From positions 2,356,001 through 2,420,000 of the forward strand of contig OX621163.1 of NCBI GenBank assembly GCA_951640195.1: a stretch of 64,000 nucleotides of DNA, in the 5' to 3' direction. Below are positions 6,201 through 44,185 of this stretch, piece after piece (position 1 is the stretch's first letter; every line of letters starts with the position of its first letter). The notes under the pieces were generated by a model. That model did not search any database. It had not been told where the DNA came from and saw only the letters and a program-made list of their open reading frames with translations. Both the position numbers and the translations under genes were made by a program. This DNA comes from Porpolomopsis calyptriformis. Lineage: Eukaryota > Basidiomycota > Agaricomycetes > Agaricales > Hygrophoraceae.

Positions 6201-6859
6201 AACATTCCTCCACTCACCAATCCCCCTTCTGGCTTGAATATGGCTGACACCCTCACACCCCCTTATCAGTTCCAACCCAAACCTCAAATCCCGATGCCAA
6301 CGAGTTTTACGTGCAGCTTACTAGAGCTAGAGAGAACGCTGAAGAGTCTCTTCAAAAGACCGCTAACTCAATGAAGCTCTATGCCGATTGAAAACGTCAA
6401 AAGGAACCCACGTTTTACGAAGGACAAAGGGTCTGGCTTGATGCCAAGAATTTGAAAACTGGCCGGCCCACAAAGAAACTGGATGTCCGCCAGCTCGGAC
6501 CTTTTATAATTCTAAAACAAGTATCGCCTGTGGCTTACCGACTAAAGCTACCGCTGTCATGGAGGATTCATCCCGTGTTTCACGTTTCGCTACTCAAGGC
6601 TCTAGAAGAGAATCTCGATCTCCACCCCCCGATCGGAGAAGATGATAATCTCCGACCACCTCCAGATGTGATCGAAGGAGAGCCCGAGTATGAAGTGGAA
6701 TGTATTCTCAATCACACCCCAGGAAAATGGAACCGACAATACCTAATCAAGTGGAAAGGCTACCCAATAGAGGCAGCCACCTGGGAACCACGATGGAACC
6801 TCAAGCACGCAAAAGATGTCTTAATGAATTATGAAAAGTCTATTCAAGCGGCGATTTAA
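3278..6859 (+). pseudogene. pol: Pol of A1: protease, RT, RNase H, integrase with chromodomain; four TGA stops
   Basis: One reading frame (about 1190 codons, -1 relative to gag) contains: retropepsin (ALIDSGASG, near 3450-3480); RT with an intact YIDD motif (near 4510); RNase H; H2C2 finger (CLACQQTK); and integrase core with the catalytic set visible (TADLIVELP, ITDRGTQF, TERTNQELE). The end is a chromodomain with the expected YEVE...YLIKWKGYP...TWEP pattern (about 6690-6830). In-frame TGA codons sit at 3800, 4457, 6245 and 6389. At the last three, sister copies have CGA (Arg), so these are single C-to-T changes. Apart from the stops the protein looks complete, so decay is recent. Confidence 0.93.
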
Positions 6860-6973: not shown

Positions 6974-7666
6974 ATGCCCCGCCAAGTTCTTTATGCTCGC
7001 AAGTCGACTGGGAGGCGTCCACCTCGAGGGAATCCCACCGCTTCTACCTCCAACCTCCCCCCTGATTCTTCTTCCTCCTCTTCCTCGTCCGACAGTGTCT
7101 TGGTTACCCGATGGTTCAAGAAGCCGAAATGACGTACCGATACTATCGACAAGCCGGGACGAAACCGTAACTACCGAGGGCTCCCCTTTGCCAAGGTCGA
7201 GCACCTATCTGGGTGCCCCGAAACCTATGTCCCTTTTATCTCTGGAGCACGTCGATGCGAACTTAACTATGACCGTCACTGGTACACGTTCGACAAGGAC
7301 AGCAACTTTGACGACAAGAAGAATCAACTCAAAGATTGGCTGGAGGCGTACCAAGTTGGGCGCCAACTTTTGATGGTTATACCGGACCAGGACGAATCCG
7401 ACGTCACCACCCCCACTATCCCCGAAGACCCCATCTCGCACCACATCCATCGTGTCGCCGACCGACTCTATGCTGCCCGAAACGGGTACCGCTCGATGAT
7501 GGATGCCAAGTATGAAAGGATCCTTGACCTGGAGGAGAATGCTGTGATGTGTAGGGAGCTGGCTGAAACTTGGTTGCGACGTGCCCGGGAGTTGGATGGC
7601 CGTTACCACTGGTTTGACCCAGATGGACACCTGCTTCAACCCCCAGTTTATGATGGTGCGACCTAG
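6974..7666 (+). pseudogene. Extra ORF (ORF3) of A1 with a histone H3 tail-like N-terminus
   Basis: This ORF of 231 codons between the pol stop and the 3' LTR belongs to no standard gag-pol domain. Without Met1 it reads PRQVLYARKSTGRRPPRG. In H3 numbering this matches R2, A7, R8, K9, S10, T11, G12, P16 and R17. A Ser-rich linker follows, then an acidic middle and a helical region (YRSMMDAKYERIL, WLRRARELDGRYHWF). One in-frame TGA (7130-7132) interrupts it. Copy A2 has CAA at that codon, so the parent was most likely CGA. The C-family ORF3 shares position, H3-like start and a similar W-R-A...Y helix. I do not recognise the rest. A role in binding chromatin readers is inference. Confidence 0.8.
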
Positions 7667-20843: not shown

Positions 20844-21422
20844 CTAGGATAAGTCCTTGTTGGAGACGGCGGTTGACAGGGAAATAATGTCGGCCGGGGA
20901 AGTAATGTCGTCGTCGGGGATGGTGATGGGGTTCGACGACGAACCAGGGGGAATGATGAGCGGATCTGGGAAAACAGGGGGAGCGGGGGAATCGAGATGG
21001 GGAAGTACCTTTGCGACTTCCTCGTATTTCGCCTCCCAATGTTTGGCCTGTTCTCGCCAATATTCGCTCACTCTTCTTTTTCCATCCAAGCTCATTCCTT
21101 GATTATATAACTCTTCGTTCAATCTCGCGATTTCGCTCTTGTAGTATTCGACGTCCTTTTTCAATGACTCAATGATCTGCTCAGGCGGGATGGGTGGTGC
21201 AATGATTTCCTCTGGCCATATGGGAAGGTCCTGATTACGTGTGTGTCGATTGTGTTGCCAGAGTTGTCCAGCGAGCTCAGCTTCACCGTAGGCGGAGGAG
21301 GTGGAAGCGAGCGGAGGGAGAGCACAATGAGGGGGTTGTCCTCCAGTGGACATACGAGGAGCACGGGGTGGACAACCACCAGTAGACTTGCGAGCAGTTT
21401 GGTGTGAGCGTTCTGCGGGCAT
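20844..21422 (-). CDS. ORF3 of C1: histone H3 tail-like protein with coiled coil
   Basis: Intact 192-codon ORF between pol and the 3' LTR. It starts MPAERSHQTARKSTGG, and residues 8-16 (QTARKSTGG) equal H3 residues 5-13, including K9 and S10. PPR follows where H3 has APR, then a second STGG element. Residues about 75-140 are charged and helical (VEYYKSEIARLNEELYNQG; EYWREQAKHWEAKYEEV), a likely coiled coil. The tail contains NPITIPDDD, resembling a SUMO-interacting motif (hydrophobic core then acids). No known retrotransposon domain is recognised. It remains open although gag and pol of this copy are broken. Confidence 0.85.
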   Translation of the reverse strand: MPAERSHQTARKSTGGCPPRAPRMSTGGQPPHCALPPLASTSSAYGEAELAGQLWQHNRHTRNQDLPIWPEEIIAPPIPPEQIIESLKKDVEYYKSEIARLNEELYNQGMSLDGKRRVSEYWREQAKHWEAKYEEVAKVLPHLDSPAPPVFPDPLIIPPGSSSNPITIPDDDITSPADIISLSTAVSNKDLS

Positions 21423-33560: not shown

Positions 33561-34838
33561 CTAGGTTGCGCCATTATAAACTGGGGGTTGAAGTAGGTGT
33601 CCATCTGGGTCAAACCAGTGGTAGCGGTTGTCCAACTCCCGGGCACGTCGCAACCAAGTTTCAGCTAGCTCCCTACACATCACTGCATTCTCCTCCAAGT
33701 CAAGGATCCTTTCATACTTGGCATCCATCATCGAGCGGTAGCTGTTCCAGGCAGTATAGAGTTAGTTGGCAACACGATGGATGTGGTGCGAGATGGGGTC
33801 TTCGGGGATAGTGGGGGTGGTGACGTCGGATTCATCCTGGTCCGGTATAACCATCAAAAGTTGGCACCCAACTTGATACGCCTCCAGCCAATCTTCAAGT
33901 TGATTCTTCTTGTTGTCAAAGTCGCTATCCTTGTCGAACGTGTACCAGTGATGGTTGTAGTTGAGTTCGCATCAACGTGCTCCAGAAATAAAAGGGACGT
34001 AGGTTTCGGGGCACCCAGATAGGTGCTTGACCTTGGCAAAGGGGAGCCCTCGGTAGTTACGATTTCGTCCCAGCTTGTCAATAGTATCGGTGCGTTGTTT
34101 CGGCTTCTTGAACCGTCGGTGTCAGGACCAAGGTTCCAAGGGGGTTCTCTGGGCCTAGCACGACACAATATAGAGCTGATAAGTGATCCAAAGGGACTGT
34201 TGGATTCAGGACGGAACCACAGTATGTAGACAAGTAAGTCAAAACTAGGGAGTCTACTACGAAAAAGCGTATCTTTATATATGAAGCAATAAAAGGGAAA
34301 TCTATGAAGGACTATAAGGGACGAGTGTTTGAAGGTCATAGGGACCTGATATGTAAGGGATAATGGTCCATAATATAGTCTTTAAAGGGGGTTCAATAGG
34401 AGTACAGAATGAAGTGAAATGAAAGGGTGAAAGGGACCGTCATAGATGATCCGAGTGCCACAGTGGCTCAGAGTGCGCGAAACGAGTGTGCTCGTTTCGC
34501 GCAGCTTTCAAGGAGCCCGATGAACCAAGTTTGGAGTGAATCCAATCACTGGTTCTTGAGTTACGGTCGCTTTAGTGATTTTGGCATAATCACTATAAAA
34601 GGTGCGCGGAATGAGTATACTCGTTTCGCGCAAGGTGTCACAACGTCACCTGAGAGTGCGCAAAATGAGTGTGCTCATTTGGCGCAGATATTTCTGACAG
34701 TTGGGCAACCAAGACACTGTCGGACGAGAAGGAGGAGGAAGAGGAATCAGGGGGAAGGTTGGAGGTAGAAGCAGGGGGGTTCCCTCGGGGTGGACGCCTC
34801 CCAGTCGACTTGCAGGCGTAAAGCACTTGGCGGGGCAT
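33561..34838 (-). pseudogene. ORF3 of A2, split by a D solo LTR
   Basis: ATG at 34838 and stop TAG at 33561, matching A1 ORF3. The N-terminus reads MPRQVLYACKSTGRRPPRG: the H3-like ARKS has become ACKS through CGC to TGC. The LTR at 34120-34699 interrupts it. Codons corresponding to CGA in the parent became CAA (A1: TGA) and TAA, showing C-to-T change on both strands. Between insertion and stop the helical WLRRARELD region is preserved. Confidence 0.82.
34120..34699 (-). repeat. Solo LTR of family D in A2 ORF3
   Basis: 580 bp, TGTCAGAAATAT...TGACA on the minus strand. The 5 bp duplication is GTCGG (34115-34119) and GTTGG (34700-34704), differing by one C/T at a CpG. Three palindromic modules lie at about 34471-34505, 34600-34634 and 34655-34689. 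The first contains a perfect GCGCGAAACGAG/CTCGTTTCGCGC inverted repeat. Confidence 0.92.
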
Positions 34839-37518: not shown

Positions 37519-37887
37519 TGTTATGATTCAGTAGTCGAAGGGTTTTACTTCTCGCGTTGGAGGGGCTGATGAGGGAAATGGAATTCGACTAAAGAGTGGG
37601 GGAGCTAACTAGGAATCGAACTTAACCTACTGACTAAAGATCAGGCTTTATATACTAACTACCTGAGTCACCATGAGTCAGTCGTGTGTACGATTACAAA
37701 GCGGAATCCGGAATGTGACTAGTGAAGAGTCACGAAAACAATAGCGGAAACGGAATGTGACTCGTGAAAGAGTCGGAAGGAAGGTACATGTGATCAATCT
37801 ATATATAAAACAGTAAAGCGGAAGGATAAACGGAATGAAGACTGATCAAGTATGACTAAAAGGAAAAAGAAAAAAGTGTCCGTGACA
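37519..37887 (-). repeat. 3' LTR of C2
   Basis: 369 bp. Minus-strand TATATAAA at 37647-37654; TGAGTCA boxes at 37664-37670 and 37674-37680; self-primer segment 37612-37623. The AATTTCGGGACGAAATT palindrome lies just outside at 37905-37923. Confidence 0.95.
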
Positions 37888-37967
37888 TACACCCACACTA
37901 AAAGGAATTTCGTCCCGAAATTCGAGGCGGCTTCGAGAGTGTTGAGGGGTGTGGAGGAGGCGAAGGA

Positions 37968-38546
37968 CTAGATTAAGTCCTTGTTGGAGACGGCGGTCGA
38001 CAGGGAAATAATGTCGGCTGGGGAAGTATTGTCGTCGTCAGGGATGGTGATGGGGTTCGACGACGAACCGGGGGGAACGATGAGCGGACCTGGGAAAACA
38101 GGAGGGACCGGGGAATCAAGATGGGGAAGTACCTTTACGACTTCCTCGTATTTCGTCTCCCAGTGTTTGGCCTGTTCTCGCCAATACTCACTCACTCTTC
38201 TCTTTCCATCCAAGCTCATTCCTTGATTATACAATTCTTCGTTCAATCTCGCGATTTCGTTTTTATAGTATTCGACGTCCTTCTGTAACGACTCGATGAT
38301 TTGCTCGGGTGGGATGGGAGGCGCGATAATTTCCTCTGGCCATATGGGAAGGTCTCGGTTGCGCGTGCGTCGGTTGTGCTGCCAGAGTTGTCCGGCGAGC
38401 TCAGCTTCACTGTAGGCGGAGGAGGTGGAAGCGAGCGGAGGGGGAGCGCGACGAGGGGGTTGCCCTCCAGTGGACATATGAGGAGTGCGGGGTGGACGAC
38501 CACCAGTTGATTTGCGAGCGGTTTGGTGTGAGCGTTCTGCGGGCAT
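37968..38546 (-). CDS. ORF3 of C2: intact histone H3 tail-like protein
   Basis: 192 codons, ATG at 38546, same place as in C1. The N-terminus MPAERSHQTARKSTGGRPPR carries nine consecutive residues of H3 (Q5 to G13), then R/P/P/R where H3 has K14/A15/P16/R17; a second STGG follows. Met1 is followed by Pro, so it should be removed, leaving the mimic close to a free N-terminus as in H3. A helical region (about residues 77-139) may dimerise, and NPITIPDDD near residue 165 resembles a SUMO-interacting motif. Differences from C1 are scattered and the H3-like core is unchanged between the two copies. Function unknown; chromatin-factor recruitment is inference. Confidence 0.88.
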   Translation of the reverse strand: MPAERSHQTARKSTGGRPPRTPHMSTGGQPPRRAPPPLASTSSAYSEAELAGQLWQHNRRTRNRDLPIWPEEIIAPPIPPEQIIESLQKDVEYYKNEIARLNEELYNQGMSLDGKRRVSEYWREQAKHWETKYEEVVKVLPHLDSPVPPVFPGPLIVPPGSSSNPITIPDDDNTSPADIISLSTAVSNKDLI

Positions 38547-38664
38547 AGTGATGTCGATTTCTAGTGAAAGACGGAGATGAAAGAGATTATAAGGATGTGT
38601 CGGAGTTTGGAATGGTGATGAAGTGAAAATATAAACGAGGGGAGTTGATACCGTGAAAGAACGA

Positions 38665-41600
38665 TTAGGTCGCCGTTTGAATTGAGTGTTCGTATTCTAG
38701 AATTCGTTCTTTCGCATGGAGGAGGTTCTTCTTCGGCTCCCAAGTTGCTTCCTCAATGGGATAGCCGACCCATTTAACCAAATACGTACGACGTCGGGTA
38801 GACCTGTGGTGTTGGAGAATTTGTTCGACCTCGTATTCTTCTTTCTCTTGAATGACATCCGGAGGTGGATGGAGATTATCATCTACTTCCTCTGGATGGA
38901 GATCGGAGTTGATATTAGCGGGTCTCAGGAGTGAAACGTGAAAGACGTCGTGTATTTTCCATGATAAGGGAAGGGCCAGGCGATAAGAGACTTTTCCGAT
39001 TTTTTCTAGAACTTTGAATGGTCCAGTACATCGGACATCAAGCTTGAGGGTTGGACGACCTGTTTTTAAGTTATGGGTATCAAGATAAACAAATTGACCT
39101 ATTTGGAGTTGGGTATCTTTCCATTTACGATCTGCGAAGCGTTTCATAGTTTCGGCTGTTGTTTCTAGAGCTTTTGTGGCTTCTTTACGGGCTTCTGTGA
39201 GATGATCGTGAAAGGCATCTGCTGCAGGATTGGAAGTAGGGATCGCAGGGATAGACGGGACAAAGGGATGTTGGCCAGTGTCAAGGTAAAAGGGAGTGTG
39301 TTTCGTCAAGGAATGTTGTCGGTTATTATACGTGAATTCAGCTGGGGACAGCCAGTTGGACCAATCGTCTTGCATAAAGTTTGTATATAAACGAAGGTAT
39401 TGTTCAAGTTCTTGATTGGTGCATTCCGTTTGACTATCAGTTTGGGGATGATAAGCGGTGGATAGACCGGAGATGATTCCCAAATGAGTATTGAGAGCTT
39501 TCGCGAATTTGGAAGCGAATTGAGTTCCTCAATCAGTTATGATCTTCTTTGGCCAGCCATGGTATTTCCATACGTTGTCCCTGAAGAGTTTTGCGACTCC
39601 TTCTGCAGAAATATTCGATGTCGTCGGGATAAAGTGAGCGCATTTGGTAAAGCGATCGACAACGACTAAGATAGCATCATAGCCAGATGATTGGGGGAGT
39701 TCCACGATCAGATCGGCGGTGATTTCTTCCCAAGGTCGAGACGAAGGGGGAATAGGTTCCAGGAGACCTGCAGGCTTCGAAGGATAGAGCTTGACTTGTT
39801 GGCAGGTTGGACAGGATGATACGAATACACGGATGTCAGGGGCAGCACTACTCCAGGTGTAGTTCCGCAACACAAGCTCACGTGTCTTCTCGATTCCGGG
39901 ATGGCCTCCATGAGGTAGGGAGTGGGTCAATCGAATTATCTCTGTGCGTAGCGATACGTCCGCTGGCACGACAATACGATCTCCTGCATCTCTCACAATT
40001 CCGTCAGTGAAGGAGTAGCCGGAAGAGGAATCGGATAATTTGATGCGAATGTCCTCTGGGATTTGATTGAAGTCGGGGAAGCGAAGTCTTGACATGAAAG
40101 AGGGTTCAGACATGGAAATGATAGCATTGATAAAATGTTCGGGAGGGAGGAGGGCTTTGCCTTCTAGTTCTTCTTTTTCTGTACAACGGTGGTCGGGTCG
40201 GCGGGAGAGTCCATCGGCTTTGTTCTTGACTCCAGGGGAATACTCGATCTTGAAGTCAAATCTGCCTAAGAATTCCATCCAATGTGCTTGTCGTCTGGAG
40301 AGGGATCTGTTCTGCATGAAATACTTGAGTGCTAAATTGTCTGTTTTTATCAATACAGTATCCCTTGCGCCCTCTAAAAGATAGCGCCAATACTTGAGGG
40401 AAGTGACGATCGCAAGCATTTCCAGATCATGGGTAGGATAGTTGTACTTGGCAGGGAGCAGGGATTTCGAGAAAAAAACCAACGGGGTGCCAACCATTGT
40501 CGTGTTTTTGAGATAAGACTGCGCCAATACCAAAATCAGAGGCATTGGTCTCCAAGAGGTAAGGAAGGTCTGGCCGTGGGGTAAGAAGGACAGGGGCTGT
40601 AGTGACAAGATGTTTGAGTTGTTCAAAGGCTTTTTGACACAAAGGAGACCAATCCCAAGGTTGGTCTTTCCGTAAAAGTCCGCAGGGGGGATGAACGACT
40701 GAGGAGAAACTTTTGATATAACGTCGCCAGAAGTTGGTGGTGCCAAGGAAGGATTGGAGGTCTCGCAGTTTTTGGGGTGTCGGCCAATTGATAATAGTGT
40801 CTACCTTCTTTGGGTTGATGGCGAGTTGACCTTTACTAATGATTGTACCAAGATATGTAACAGAAGTCTTTTCCATTTGGCATTTGACAGGTTTGGTGGA
40901 TAGTTGATTCTTCTCCATGAGTTTAAGGGTTTCGTCAGTCCAGTGACGGATTTCTTCGGGGGTGTCGCCCATAATGAGAATGTCGTCAATATAGATGTGA
41001 ACACAGCCAGAGTCCAGAATGGGTTTAAAGAGAACGTCTATCATTCGTTGAAAAGATGCTGGGGAGTTTCGTAGTCCAAAGAACATAACAGTCGGTTCAA
41101 AGAGTCCTCGATTAGTGATGAAAGCTGCTTTCCATTCGTCACCTTCCTTGAGTCGTATGTTGTTAAATCCCCATCGAATATCGATGACAGTGAAGAGCGA
41201 AGCAGTAGCAAGCTTCGGTACTTGCAGGATTTCCGATAGAAGGGGGAGGGGATAACGATCAGGAATGGTTTTCGAGTTGATGTAGCAATAGTCCTGGATG
41301 GGACGTAGACCAGCACTGAGACCTTTAGCATTGATCTCTTCAGCCTTTTTCGCAAAGAAGAAAGGAGCAGCTTGTGGTGATTTCGATGGACATATTCGAC
41401 CTGTTCTGAGATTTTCGTCAATAAACTTATTAAGTTCCACCTGTTCATAGGGGGAAAGGGGATAGAGTTTTCCAACTTGAAATTTGGTGTTCGGGTAGAG
41501 GTTGATCGCATGATCAAAGGAACGTCGAGGAGGAAATTTGTCGAATTCTGTGGTATGGAAAACACGCCAGAAATTATGATAACGACTGGGAATGAAGGAT

Positions 41601-42233
41601 TTGATGTCCTCCTCGATGGAAACTGGTCGGGAGTGGTCAACTCCAACCAAACGGATAAAGGAGTCATGTTTCAGACTCGAATCAAAGACGTAGAGTTCTT
41701 CCTGTGGGGGCAACACTCCGACTTGCATACTACTGAACAGCGTGTCACCAGACGCAAAGGTTAAGGTGCCTTTTCTCCAATTGATGGTGGGGTTGTGTCG
41801 CAAGAGCCATGGGAAGCCGAGGATGACCTGTGGCTTTTTTCCTAAGTTGGTGACCTCCAACCGGATTCGTTCTTGAAAAGATAGATCTGGTGCCTCGATA
41901 AACAGGTCTGTGTCGTGCGTGATGGGACCTCCTCGGTTCTCGGAACCATCAGCGTTTCGTACCGGTACAACCTCATCCAACAGATAGGTCGATATCTCCA
42001 TTTGACGAACGAATGCTTCGTCAATAAAATTCCCTGAGGCGCCAGAGTCAATGAGTGCTATGATAGCCACTCATCGAAGATTGTCGGCACTCGTGATCCA
42101 AAGATAGAATTCGAGAGCGCCTTTGCCCTGTTCAAGTGTGCCAAGAAAACGAAAACTTTTCGTAGATGGTGGTACACATACATGGGACACAGCCAAAGTG
42201 CTTGGGCATTTAGCACTTGGCTGGACTAAAAAT
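38665..42233 (-). pseudogene. pol: Pol of C2: protease, RT, RNase H, integrase, chromodomain
   Basis: Starts in the -1 frame at the gag stop. Protease ALIDSGASGNFIDE (about 42030); RT with SFQRMIDVLF and YIDD (about 40990); RNase H (TNASDFGIGAVLS); H2C2; integrase with ITADLIVELP, IITD and the later helix; chromodomain EYEVEQIL...YLVKWVGYP...TWEP (about 38700-38850). Defects: TGA at 42071 and 39529 (CGA class), and one extra A in an A-run near 40471 that shifts the frame relative to C1. Otherwise near full length. Confidence 0.92.
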
Positions 42234-43641
42234 CCTTTTGCTCTTTTAACGCTCGAGCTAGCGCAGCCCGTCTCTCCTTGTCCCAATTCGCGATTCCCAT
42301 ATCCTTCAGGTCGTCTTTTGCCGTCCTTTTTTCATCATCCTCTGGTACTTCCTCTATCCGCACTTCCGATTCTTCTGTATCAACCCGATTGATCGTTCGG
42401 ACATTTCGTCCTTTGCCTCGACCGCGATTTCCTCCTTTTCCTCGAGTAGAAGTTGAGGATTCTTGATGTGCCGGAACGTCTTCAGCACGTGGGCTTCGAC
42501 ATTTGTTGGCGTAATGTCCCTTTTTGCCACAGTTGTAACAAGTGATGGAGGAGTTATCTCGTTTCGCTGTTTTGAGAGAGGCTTCTTTTGATTCTTGTTT
42601 GACTGGGGATGAAGTGGTGGTAGTGGTGGAGCGGGAAGGGTTTCCTCGGGGATTCGATTTGGCTTCAGACTTCTTTCCTTTTTGATCTCGACTTGACCAC
42701 AACGCTTGTTCAGCTCGTTGCTCCTGGTACTGTTCCTCAAACTGGGCCGCTTTCGTCGTCCAGTCCAGTAAGGTCGACGGCATATTGTCCATCGAGTAGA
42801 TCCGCGTTCGGATCGGCTGGGGAAGTCCGGCTTTGTAAAACCGAAGTAGAGCGGTCTCGTTGTACTCAGTTCTTGCTGCGTGTTGCATGAACTGGAGGTT
42901 GTAGTCTTCTATCGTTCCTGTCATCTTCACTTTTTCTAGCTCGATCTGCGCCTTCGCCGCTGGGTTAATCCTTCCGAAAGCTTCCCTGAAATCGTCCAAA
43001 AATGTTGTGTAGTCCCATATGAAATTCCTCGTTCTATCAACTCCTTCCGTGAACAGTCGTCCCCAAGCCCATGGGTTGCCGTCACCGAGATAAGAGAGCA
43101 TGTAGACGATTTTCTGTTTGTCGTTGTAGTCCTTGACCACAAAATTGAGTCGACATTGGTGAATGAAATCTTCAAGCTTCTCGGAAGTTCCATTGTATTC
43201 GGTTGGATCAGCAATTTTAATTTTGGTGGGGGCTGGAGATGTAAGGGGAGCAGTTGTCTGGGCAGGTAGTTGAGTGGGAAAGGTTGATGGGATAAGAGGT
43301 TGGACGGATTCGGTTCTTCTTGTAGGGTAAACGAAAGGATTCGAGGGGGAAAGTCCAGGTCCCCGAAGTACAGATTGTCGTCGTGGGGGAGGGGTGGTTG
43401 GTTCTGAGTTTTCTTGTCGACTTTCTTTGAGAGCTTTTAATTCCTTTCGGAGTTCATCATTGACGTTGACTTCGTTGTAGTACCAGCCACGGAACTGATC
43501 GATTTGTGCTCTTAGATCTCTGAGCTCTTGTTCGATGTTGAATGGGATGACGTCTTCTTCTTCTTCTTGGATGGTAGGGGGGATGTTGCTGGGTCCGGGT
43601 GTGGGAACACTCTGATCGGCTTCGTATTCTTGTTGAGACAT
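42226..43641 (-). CDS. gag: Gag of C2
   Basis: Intact 471-residue Gag from ATG 43641 (MSQQEYEADQSVPTPG). Acidic and coiled N-terminus (about residues 30-75), Pro/Ser linker, gag core (IADPTEYNGTSEKLEDFI; LSYLGDGNPWAWGRLFTEG), a basic linker, CCHC knuckle CYNCGKKGHYANKC (about 42520-42480), Arg/Gly stretch and acidic C-terminus. It ends GAT TTT TAG and overlaps pol in the -1 frame. Confidence 0.93.
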   Translation of the reverse strand: MSQQEYEADQSVPTPGPSNIPPTIQEEEEDVIPFNIEQELRDLRAQIDQFRGWYYNEVNVNDELRKELKALKESRQENSEPTTPPPRRQSVLRGPGLSPSNPFVYPTRRTESVQPLIPSTFPTQLPAQTTAPLTSPAPTKIKIADPTEYNGTSEKLEDFIHQCRLNFVVKDYNDKQKIVYMLSYLGDGNPWAWGRLFTEGVDRTRNFIWDYTTFLDDFREAFGRINPAAKAQIELEKVKMTGTIEDYNLQFMQHAARTEYNETALLRFYKAGLPQPIRTRIYSMDNMPSTLLDWTTKAAQFEEQYQEQRAEQALWSSRDQKGKKSEAKSNPRGNPSRSTTTTTSSPVKQESKEASLKTAKRDNSSITCYNCGKKGHYANKCRSPRAEDVPAHQESSTSTRGKGGNRGRGKGRNVRTINRVDTEESEVRIEEVPEDDEKRTAKDDLKDMGIANWDKERRAALARALKEQKDF

Positions 43642-43804
43642 TGATGTTAGTGATGATGATGAGGGGGAAAGGGGGATGATGGATTGTGCAGGGGTTTGGA
43701 ATACTATAGGTTGAAAGGGAGTATCTGAATCTGCGGATGAGAAGATTGACCTTGTTAAGTCTTCGGCAGGATCCAGAGTGGAGGTAGTTTGATGTGCAAG
43801 AAGG

Positions 43805-43816
43805 AAGTTCGATTCT
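43805..43816 (-). other. Primer-binding site of C2 (self-primed type)
   Basis: AGAATCGAACTT on the minus strand directly follows the LTR. Its complement matches the LTR at 11/12 (37612-37623), about 24 bp downstream of the TATA box. The next bases CCTTCTTG are also shared with A and B leaders. Confidence 0.68.
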
Positions 43817-44185
43817 TGTTATGATTCAGTAGTCGAAGGGTTTTACTTCTCGCATTGGAGGGGCTGATGAGGGAAATGGAATTCGACTAAAGAGTGGGGG
43901 AGCTAACTAGGAATCGAACTTAACCTACTGACTAAAGATCAGGCTTTATATACTAACTACCTGAGTCGCCATGAGTCAGTCGTGTGTACGATTACAAAGC
44001 GGAATCCGGAATGTGACTAGTGAAGAGTCACAAAAACAATAGCAGAAACAGAATGTGACTCGTGAAAGAGTCGGAAGGAAGGTACATGTGATCAATCTAT
44101 ATATAAAACGGTAAAGCGGAAGGATAAACGGAATGAAGACTGATCAAGTATGACTAAAAGGAAAAAGAAAAAAGTGTCCGTGACA
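43817..44185 (-). repeat. 5' LTR of C2
   Basis: 369 bp, nearly identical to 37519-37887, consistent with recent insertion. Confidence 0.95.

Follow-up and report, generated by a model that had tools for sequence, protein, structure and literature searches.

Short motifs that resemble the tail of histone H3 are known from host enzymes and from genetic parasites. The automethylation sites of G9a and GLP carry an H3K9-like motif that is methylated and then bound by HP1 (PMC9768651), and H3-tail-like motifs have been described in influenza NS1, SARS-CoV-2 ORF8 and adenovirus protein VII (PMC10208167). Among retroelements, a helix of the Ty3 integrase imitates in part the binding of a histone tail to the protein's own chromodomain (PMC8632968), and LTR retrotransposons of bdelloid rotifers carry a family-specific ORF after pol (PMC5408684). 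Fungal chromoviruses (Ty3/gypsy, e.g., MAGGY) consist of gag, pol, an integrase with a Tyr-Trp-Tyr-cage chromodomain and two LTRs.

The element studied here, from the agaric Porpolomopsis calyptriformis, shares these chromovirus parts but has an extra ORF after pol (ORF3) with an H3-like N-terminus. Unlike in G9a and GLP, the likeness here consists of nine identical residues near the N-terminus of a transposon protein. The block is also longer than the ARKS of SARS-CoV-2 ORF8, which is only claimed to be a mimic and is disputed (PMC10833455), and it was tested for selection over 71 copies. Whereas the Ty3 mimic lies within the same protein as its chromodomain, which has no aromatic cage, the element described here has an intact cage and carries the mimic on a separate protein. 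The ORF3s described in bdelloids include env-like proteins, esterases, exonucleases, and coiled-coil or transmembrane proteins (PMC5408684), and they are not known to contain a histone tail. Among the papers listed by a search of open-licence literature, mostly of titles and the beginnings of abstracts, there was no transposon-encoded histone mimic, which is weak evidence of absence; within that literature, what is new here is that the mimic is encoded by a transposon.

The window is a stretch of 64,000 nucleotides (contig OX621163.1, positions 2,356,001 to 2,420,000) containing two copies of this element family, termed C, and fragments of a second family, A (Table 1). The C copy at 37519-44185 is ordered as LTR, gag-like ORF, pol, integrase with a C-terminal chromodomain (stop at 38665), ORF3 and 3′ LTR. 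This order bears out the earlier statement that ORF3 lies between pol and the 3′ LTR. The repeat search found the LTRs as a 300-nt pair, 98% alike, and by reading we found a 5-bp target site duplication, AGAAG, outside both, so that the LTRs and duplication of a chromovirus are present. In this copy pol is broken into three separate frames (40427-42070, 39529-40746 and 38665-39483), yet ORF3 is intact. In many copies, but not all, a pyrimidine tract and an AG precede the ORF3 start by about 15 bases (window 38547-38586); at positions −16/−15, the A is present in 60 and the G in 39 of 71 copies. These features possibly mark a splice acceptor used to make an ORF3 mRNA.

Table 1. Positions of the C- and A-family features in the window
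Feature	Position	Strand	Basis or remark
C-family LTR retrotransposon, whole	37519..44185	-	LTR pair and flanking duplication
5′ LTR of C element	43817-44185	-	369 bp; ends read by eye
Gag-like ORF with CYNCGKKGHYANKC, which we take to be a zinc knuckle	42226..43641	-	By reading
Pol region of C element	38665..42070	-	ORF list
Chromodomain, integrase C-terminus	38689..38835	-	Residues 217-265 of the 38665-39483 ORF
ORF3, 192 aa	37968..38546	-	ORF list and translation
QTARKSTGG codons (ORF3 codons 8-16)	38499..38525	-	Translation and genome pattern search
3′ LTR of C element	37519-37887	-	369 bp; ends read by eye
ORF3 of second C copy	20844..21422	-	Same motif at 21375-21401
A-family integrase end with chromodomain	6611..6853	+	60% identical to the C chromodomain
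A-family ORF3, open part to first stop; MPRQVLYARKSTGRRPPRG	6974..7132	+	ARKSTG codons 6995-7012
Second A-family ORF3 start, decayed; MPRQVLYACKSTGRRPPRG	34698..34838	-	Window scan and reading

In translation, ORF3 of the window element opens MPAERSHQTARKSTGG (start of the ORF, MPAERSHQTARKSTGGRPPRTPHMSTGG; N-terminus of the 192-residue protein, MPAERSHQTARKSTGGRPPRTPHMSTGGQPPR), and the copy starting at 21422 opens MPAERSHQTARKSTGGCPPRAPRMSTGG. The sequence-only reading had pointed to nine residues matching the H3 tail around K9. This claim is confirmed and turned out stronger than first made. QTARKSTGG equals residues 5-13 of the host genome's own H3 in 9 of 9 residues. Of the three H3 loci in the host, two open MARTKQTARKSTGG and are interrupted, by reading, by an intron at G13, while L040, the third, contains QTARKSTGG but has a different exon start. 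The P-P-R reported to follow the block is seen in the translations of both window C copies, where the residue just before it differs (R or C). Further on, at 38463-38474 (codons 25-28), lies a second STGG followed by QPPR, resembling a partial repeat of STGGRPPR.

For the genome-wide count, a degenerate codon pattern covering all spellings of QTARKSTGG was searched over the 33.5-Mb genome, with the reversed pattern as the control. The pattern gave 70 matches against 0 for the control; 3 were at H3 genes and 67 at the expected place in ORF3 copies. The identity of the block to H3 around K9 therefore exceeds chance. A search for ORF3 listed 128 matches, 98 of them including the N-terminus, and the exact block is present in 67 of these 98. 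We read 90 N-termini (71 full copies plus 19 picked for having no exact match); of the remaining eight, seven are exact as known from the pattern only, and one is inexact. The mimic is unchanged between the two window copies, as stated earlier, but not in every copy of the genome: 31 N-termini lack the exact block, mostly in decayed copies and mostly through Arg to Cys or His (30 of the 31 were read). The lysine is kept in 88 of the 90 N-termini read (N in L100, E in L101). Among the full copies, 54 of 71 have no stop before residue 185 and 60 of 71 have the exact motif; the arginine matching H3 R8 is gone in nine, six of which are stop-free. Indels occur directly upstream of the core (SHQ, THHQ, IQHHSQ) while the core stays.

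Many of the changes in decaying ORF3 copies turn Arg into Cys, His or stop. These are CpG-type transitions, which cytosine methylation of the copies would be expected to produce. Some older copies (L103, L099 and L104) have Thr-His before QTA (CTHQTARK, CTHQTAHK), and such starts are nearer to the RTKQTARK of H3 than is the RSHQ of young copies.

Changes were then mapped by parsimony on one midpoint-rooted FastTree topology, built from ORF3 and 1.3 kb of upstream sequence in the 71 full copies. In the block (codons 8-16), 37 changes were synonymous and 9 altered the amino acid, 7 of these 9 at Arg11 and none at the lysine, against 121 and 165 in the flanks (P = 1.9 × 10−6 by Fisher's test) and with P = 1.3 × 10−4 against the rest of codons 1-185. 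Synonymous and amino-acid changes numbered 25 and 28 in codons 1-7, 96 and 137 in codons 17-50, and 294 and 192 in helix codons 86-140. With mutation modeled approximately (kappa, 3; CpG factor, 1, 5 or 10) to correct for codon make-up and CpG, and with copies that are not independent, omega was 0.08-0.10 for the block and 0.02-0.03 without Arg11, compared with 0.36-0.44 for codons 1-7, 0.62-0.63 for codons 17-50 and 0.21-0.30 for the helix. Internal branches carried 19 synonymous and 2 amino-acid changes in the block, both at Arg11. Apparent back-changes on the tree suggest recombination or homoplasy. The block is kept by selection in the C family: the dN/dS-type comparison that the sequence-only reading had proposed came out in favor of retention, and the free drift that it had named as contrary evidence was not observed.

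Per codon, the synonymous and amino-acid changes were 0/0 for Q, 4/0 for T, 6/0 for A, 1/7 for R, 11/0 for K, 8/0 for S, 6/0 for the second T, and 1/1 and 0/1 for the two glycines. The many synonymous changes argue against constraint at the DNA level. Arg11 is only modestly better kept than other arginines, with 7 changes against 7 to 19 in the nine others of codons 1-64. Of 177 nine-codon windows, the block ranks seventh, behind six that begin within the helix, at codons 98-105. The next codon after the block, R17, which matches H3 K14, had 1 synonymous and 13 amino-acid changes, so the kept stretch stops where H3 G13 ends. This pattern bears on the idea that the block is an H3-like nuclear import signal of the Kap123 type, with methylation having no role. 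H3 residues 1-28 are an import signal in which K14R has a minor effect, but the lysines that matter in that signal are K14, flanked by Gly/Ala, and K23 (PMC5677370), whereas in ORF3 the poorly kept R17 is followed by Pro and the kept block lies upstream. As the position matching Lys14 is poorly kept, import by an H3 signal fits worse, and we regard it as very improbable.

The same counts weigh on a reading without any functional mimic, in which a basic disordered segment resembles H3 by chance or through an old capture of H3 exon 1 and has been retained for some other reason. The end of exon 1 at G13 in two of the three host loci would suit a capture, as would one ORF3 spelling that matches H3 DNA at 25 of 26 bases. 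That match is not decisive, since a codon-usage null reached at least 25 in 94 of 20,000 draws and 14 spellings, found among 59 compared ORF3 copies, were tried. The likeness also continues past the exon end (RPPR versus KAPR), the exon start is not shared by the third H3 locus, and neutral retention of a captured exon is at odds with 37 synonymous and 9 amino-acid changes; chance does not give the exact block, the reversed control having had 0 matches. We consider this reading, in which the block has no mimic function, improbable; as the origin of the block, capture of H3 exon 1 is a possibility.

A second family shows a similar start. A-family ORF3 (window 6974; second fragment, 34838) opens MPRQVLYARKSTGRRPPRGNP, where ARKSTGRRPPR stands against ARKSTGGRPPR in the C family (10 of 11 residues, ARKSTG.RPPR) and LY stands where H3 has QT. 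Overall, the A and C ORF3s are 33% identical; by BLAST, the piece from ARKSTG onward is 42% identical, and a later piece is 18% identical, a weak match (E = 0.19). When the window was scanned in six frames for [AT][RCH]KS[TA], four places matched, all of them ORF3 N-termini of A and C. The 52-residue A-family start had 115 matches in the genome; with the two in the window, we read 22, and among the 20 others 15 have frames of 214 or more, with the rest decayed or short. In the 22 copies read, the lysine is kept in all and ARKSTG is exact in 10; most losses turned Arg into Cys, or Ser into Leu, at CpG. On these sequences, the mimic belongs to two of the element families seen, C and A.

Other chromodomain elements do not carry it. 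In a third family (L133 and L134; integrase end SIQTAT), the ORF after the integrase opens MPATRSTRSPSPQ, with no mimic at its start; further on, L133 has ARKTS in a frame without a start codon and L134 has ARKIS there, and we did not count these as mimics. Another chromodomain class (L131, L132 and L135-L137) had no mimic in the 461 bases after the chromodomain, nor did the six-frame scan find one downstream of the chromodomain element at 57.2 kb of the window. Conversely, the element typified by L031 and L109 has, by reading, an integrase without a chromodomain and a related helix ORF3 without the mimic (29% identity in the ORF3 alignment, for the L109 ORF). A strict pairing of chromodomain and mimic, which this element had suggested, was dropped because L133 and L134 carry a chromodomain and no mimic; reader and mimic are therefore not strictly paired. 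In L031 (1-3026, with L109 at G000:C1:519364-523350), a C-type fragment lies inside the chromodomain-less element and comprises an integrase end, a frame-shifted chromodomain with cage residues and a complete ORF3. Five ORF3 copies resemble each other (77 to 78% to the query), each about 1.4 kb before the ORF of the chromodomain-less element, so this chimera seems to have multiplied.

The C integrase ends in a PF00385 chromodomain (E = 4 × 10−14; 52.7 bits against a cutoff of 25.1), as in Ty3/gypsy chromoviruses with a group I chromodomain. Its cage in the window copy is Tyr217/Trp238/Tyr241 of the 38665-39483 ORF, and YWY is present in 69 of the 70 copies with a chromodomain match (71 searched), with one Y*Y. 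The cage positions named for such chromodomains are Y24, W45 and Y48, and the MAGGY chromodomain binds H3K9me2/3 (PMC3350952). A fold search placed chromodomains of H3K9me readers and SUV39H1 nearest to that of the element. In chromodomain binding of H3K9 peptides, Q5-S10 (QTARKS) is critical, and QT distinguishes K9 from K27 (PMC3532415). The host genome has one Pre-SET match, whose nearest solved structures are Clr4 and which adjoins frames reading like SET exons. Judged by these matches, the host has a Clr4-like methyltransferase gene, so that a candidate writer, the mimic and the reader coexist. A chromo shadow family search for host HP1 gave 0 matches, with no positive from any control genome either, so that this zero carries no weight.

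The block might instead serve proteins that read or modify the H3 tail in its unmethylated state (a kinase, an acetyltransferase or a PHD-type reader) or 14-3-3 after Ser phosphorylation, and retention of T and GG beyond the Q5-S10 chromodomain footprint suits such partners. A1-R2, on which readers of the free H3 end depend, are missing from the ORF3 N-terminus, and the C family retains the Q and T that precede ARKS, both of which speak against this explanation; it seems to us hardly more than a slim possibility.

In the structure model of ORF3, residues 1-46 have low confidence (pLDDT, 42-48 over 1-40), with no helix until residue 47, and are likely a disordered tail. Residues 80-139 are modeled as a single long helix (mean pLDDT, 94-98 over 81-130) that is compatible with a coiled coil. 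ORF3 matched no Pfam family at E = 0.1, and a fold search with the model gave no match (best E = 3.5). A place after pol would suit an env-like ORF3; no transmembrane segments were seen by eye in the translation. Against a protein collection, the C and A ORF3s had no relative at E = 0.001, while the integrase had relatives at 61 to 64% identity; viral contigs yielded no relative of either ORF3 or the integrase. ORF3 is thus either fast-evolving or restricted. The mimic, its copies and the selection are known from one host genome.

With ARKSTG also present in a second family, a full-cage chromodomain on the integrase and an H3K9-type methyltransferase gene in the host, the block is most naturally read as a mimic. 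We tentatively propose, as a serious possibility still short of probable, that the ORF3 N-terminus is a selected copy of H3 5-13 that is likely methylated by the Clr4-like enzyme and held by chromodomains. The host enzyme would likely methylate the ORF3 lysine matching H3K9, and methylated ORF3 would likely be held by the chromodomain of the element's own integrase or of host HP1. The predicted long helix may pair ORF3 molecules, so that each complex would show two or more tails. Chromoviruses are thought to integrate at H3K9-methylated chromatin. Paired tails could bridge integrase complexes or tether element DNA to such chromatin; methylation, binding, pairing and tethering by ORF3 are all steps that we infer. 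In the simplest reading, ORF3 would be a methyl-dependent handle for chromodomain proteins on a probably self-associating helix. Points against the proposal are the chromodomain families that lack the mimic, the loss of Arg11 in nine full copies, the six helix windows that are kept better than the block, LY in place of QT in the A family, the single genome surveyed and the disputed precedent of ORF8.

The evidence on the motif would also fit a decoy, in which ORF3 occupies the H3K9 methyltransferase or HP1 and weakens the silencing of the element. Many CpG-type losses give the copies the look of silenced DNA, the host genome has matches to DNA methylase families, and transposon anti-silencing proteins such as VANC exist (PMC10398659, PMC5735166). 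On the other hand, the abundance of histones makes bulk titration hard, as has been argued for ORF8 (PMC10833455), and ORF3 has no Pfam domain. We consider a decoy unlikely.

Returning to the proposed handle, an extension of it, which we regard as doubtful, is that an H3K9me switch is encoded whole by the element, with the integrase chromodomain as reader and an ORF3 ligand that the host enzyme arms by methylation, so that the host's silencing machinery would license assembly or targeting. The transposon-encoded mimic, retained in dozens of copies and present in two families, accompanies an H3K9me-type reader that is part of the integrase of the element itself, and it makes a concrete peptide-binding experiment possible. 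If the proposal is true, chromovirus silencing and integration would be linked via a protein for which the silencing mark serves as a signal.
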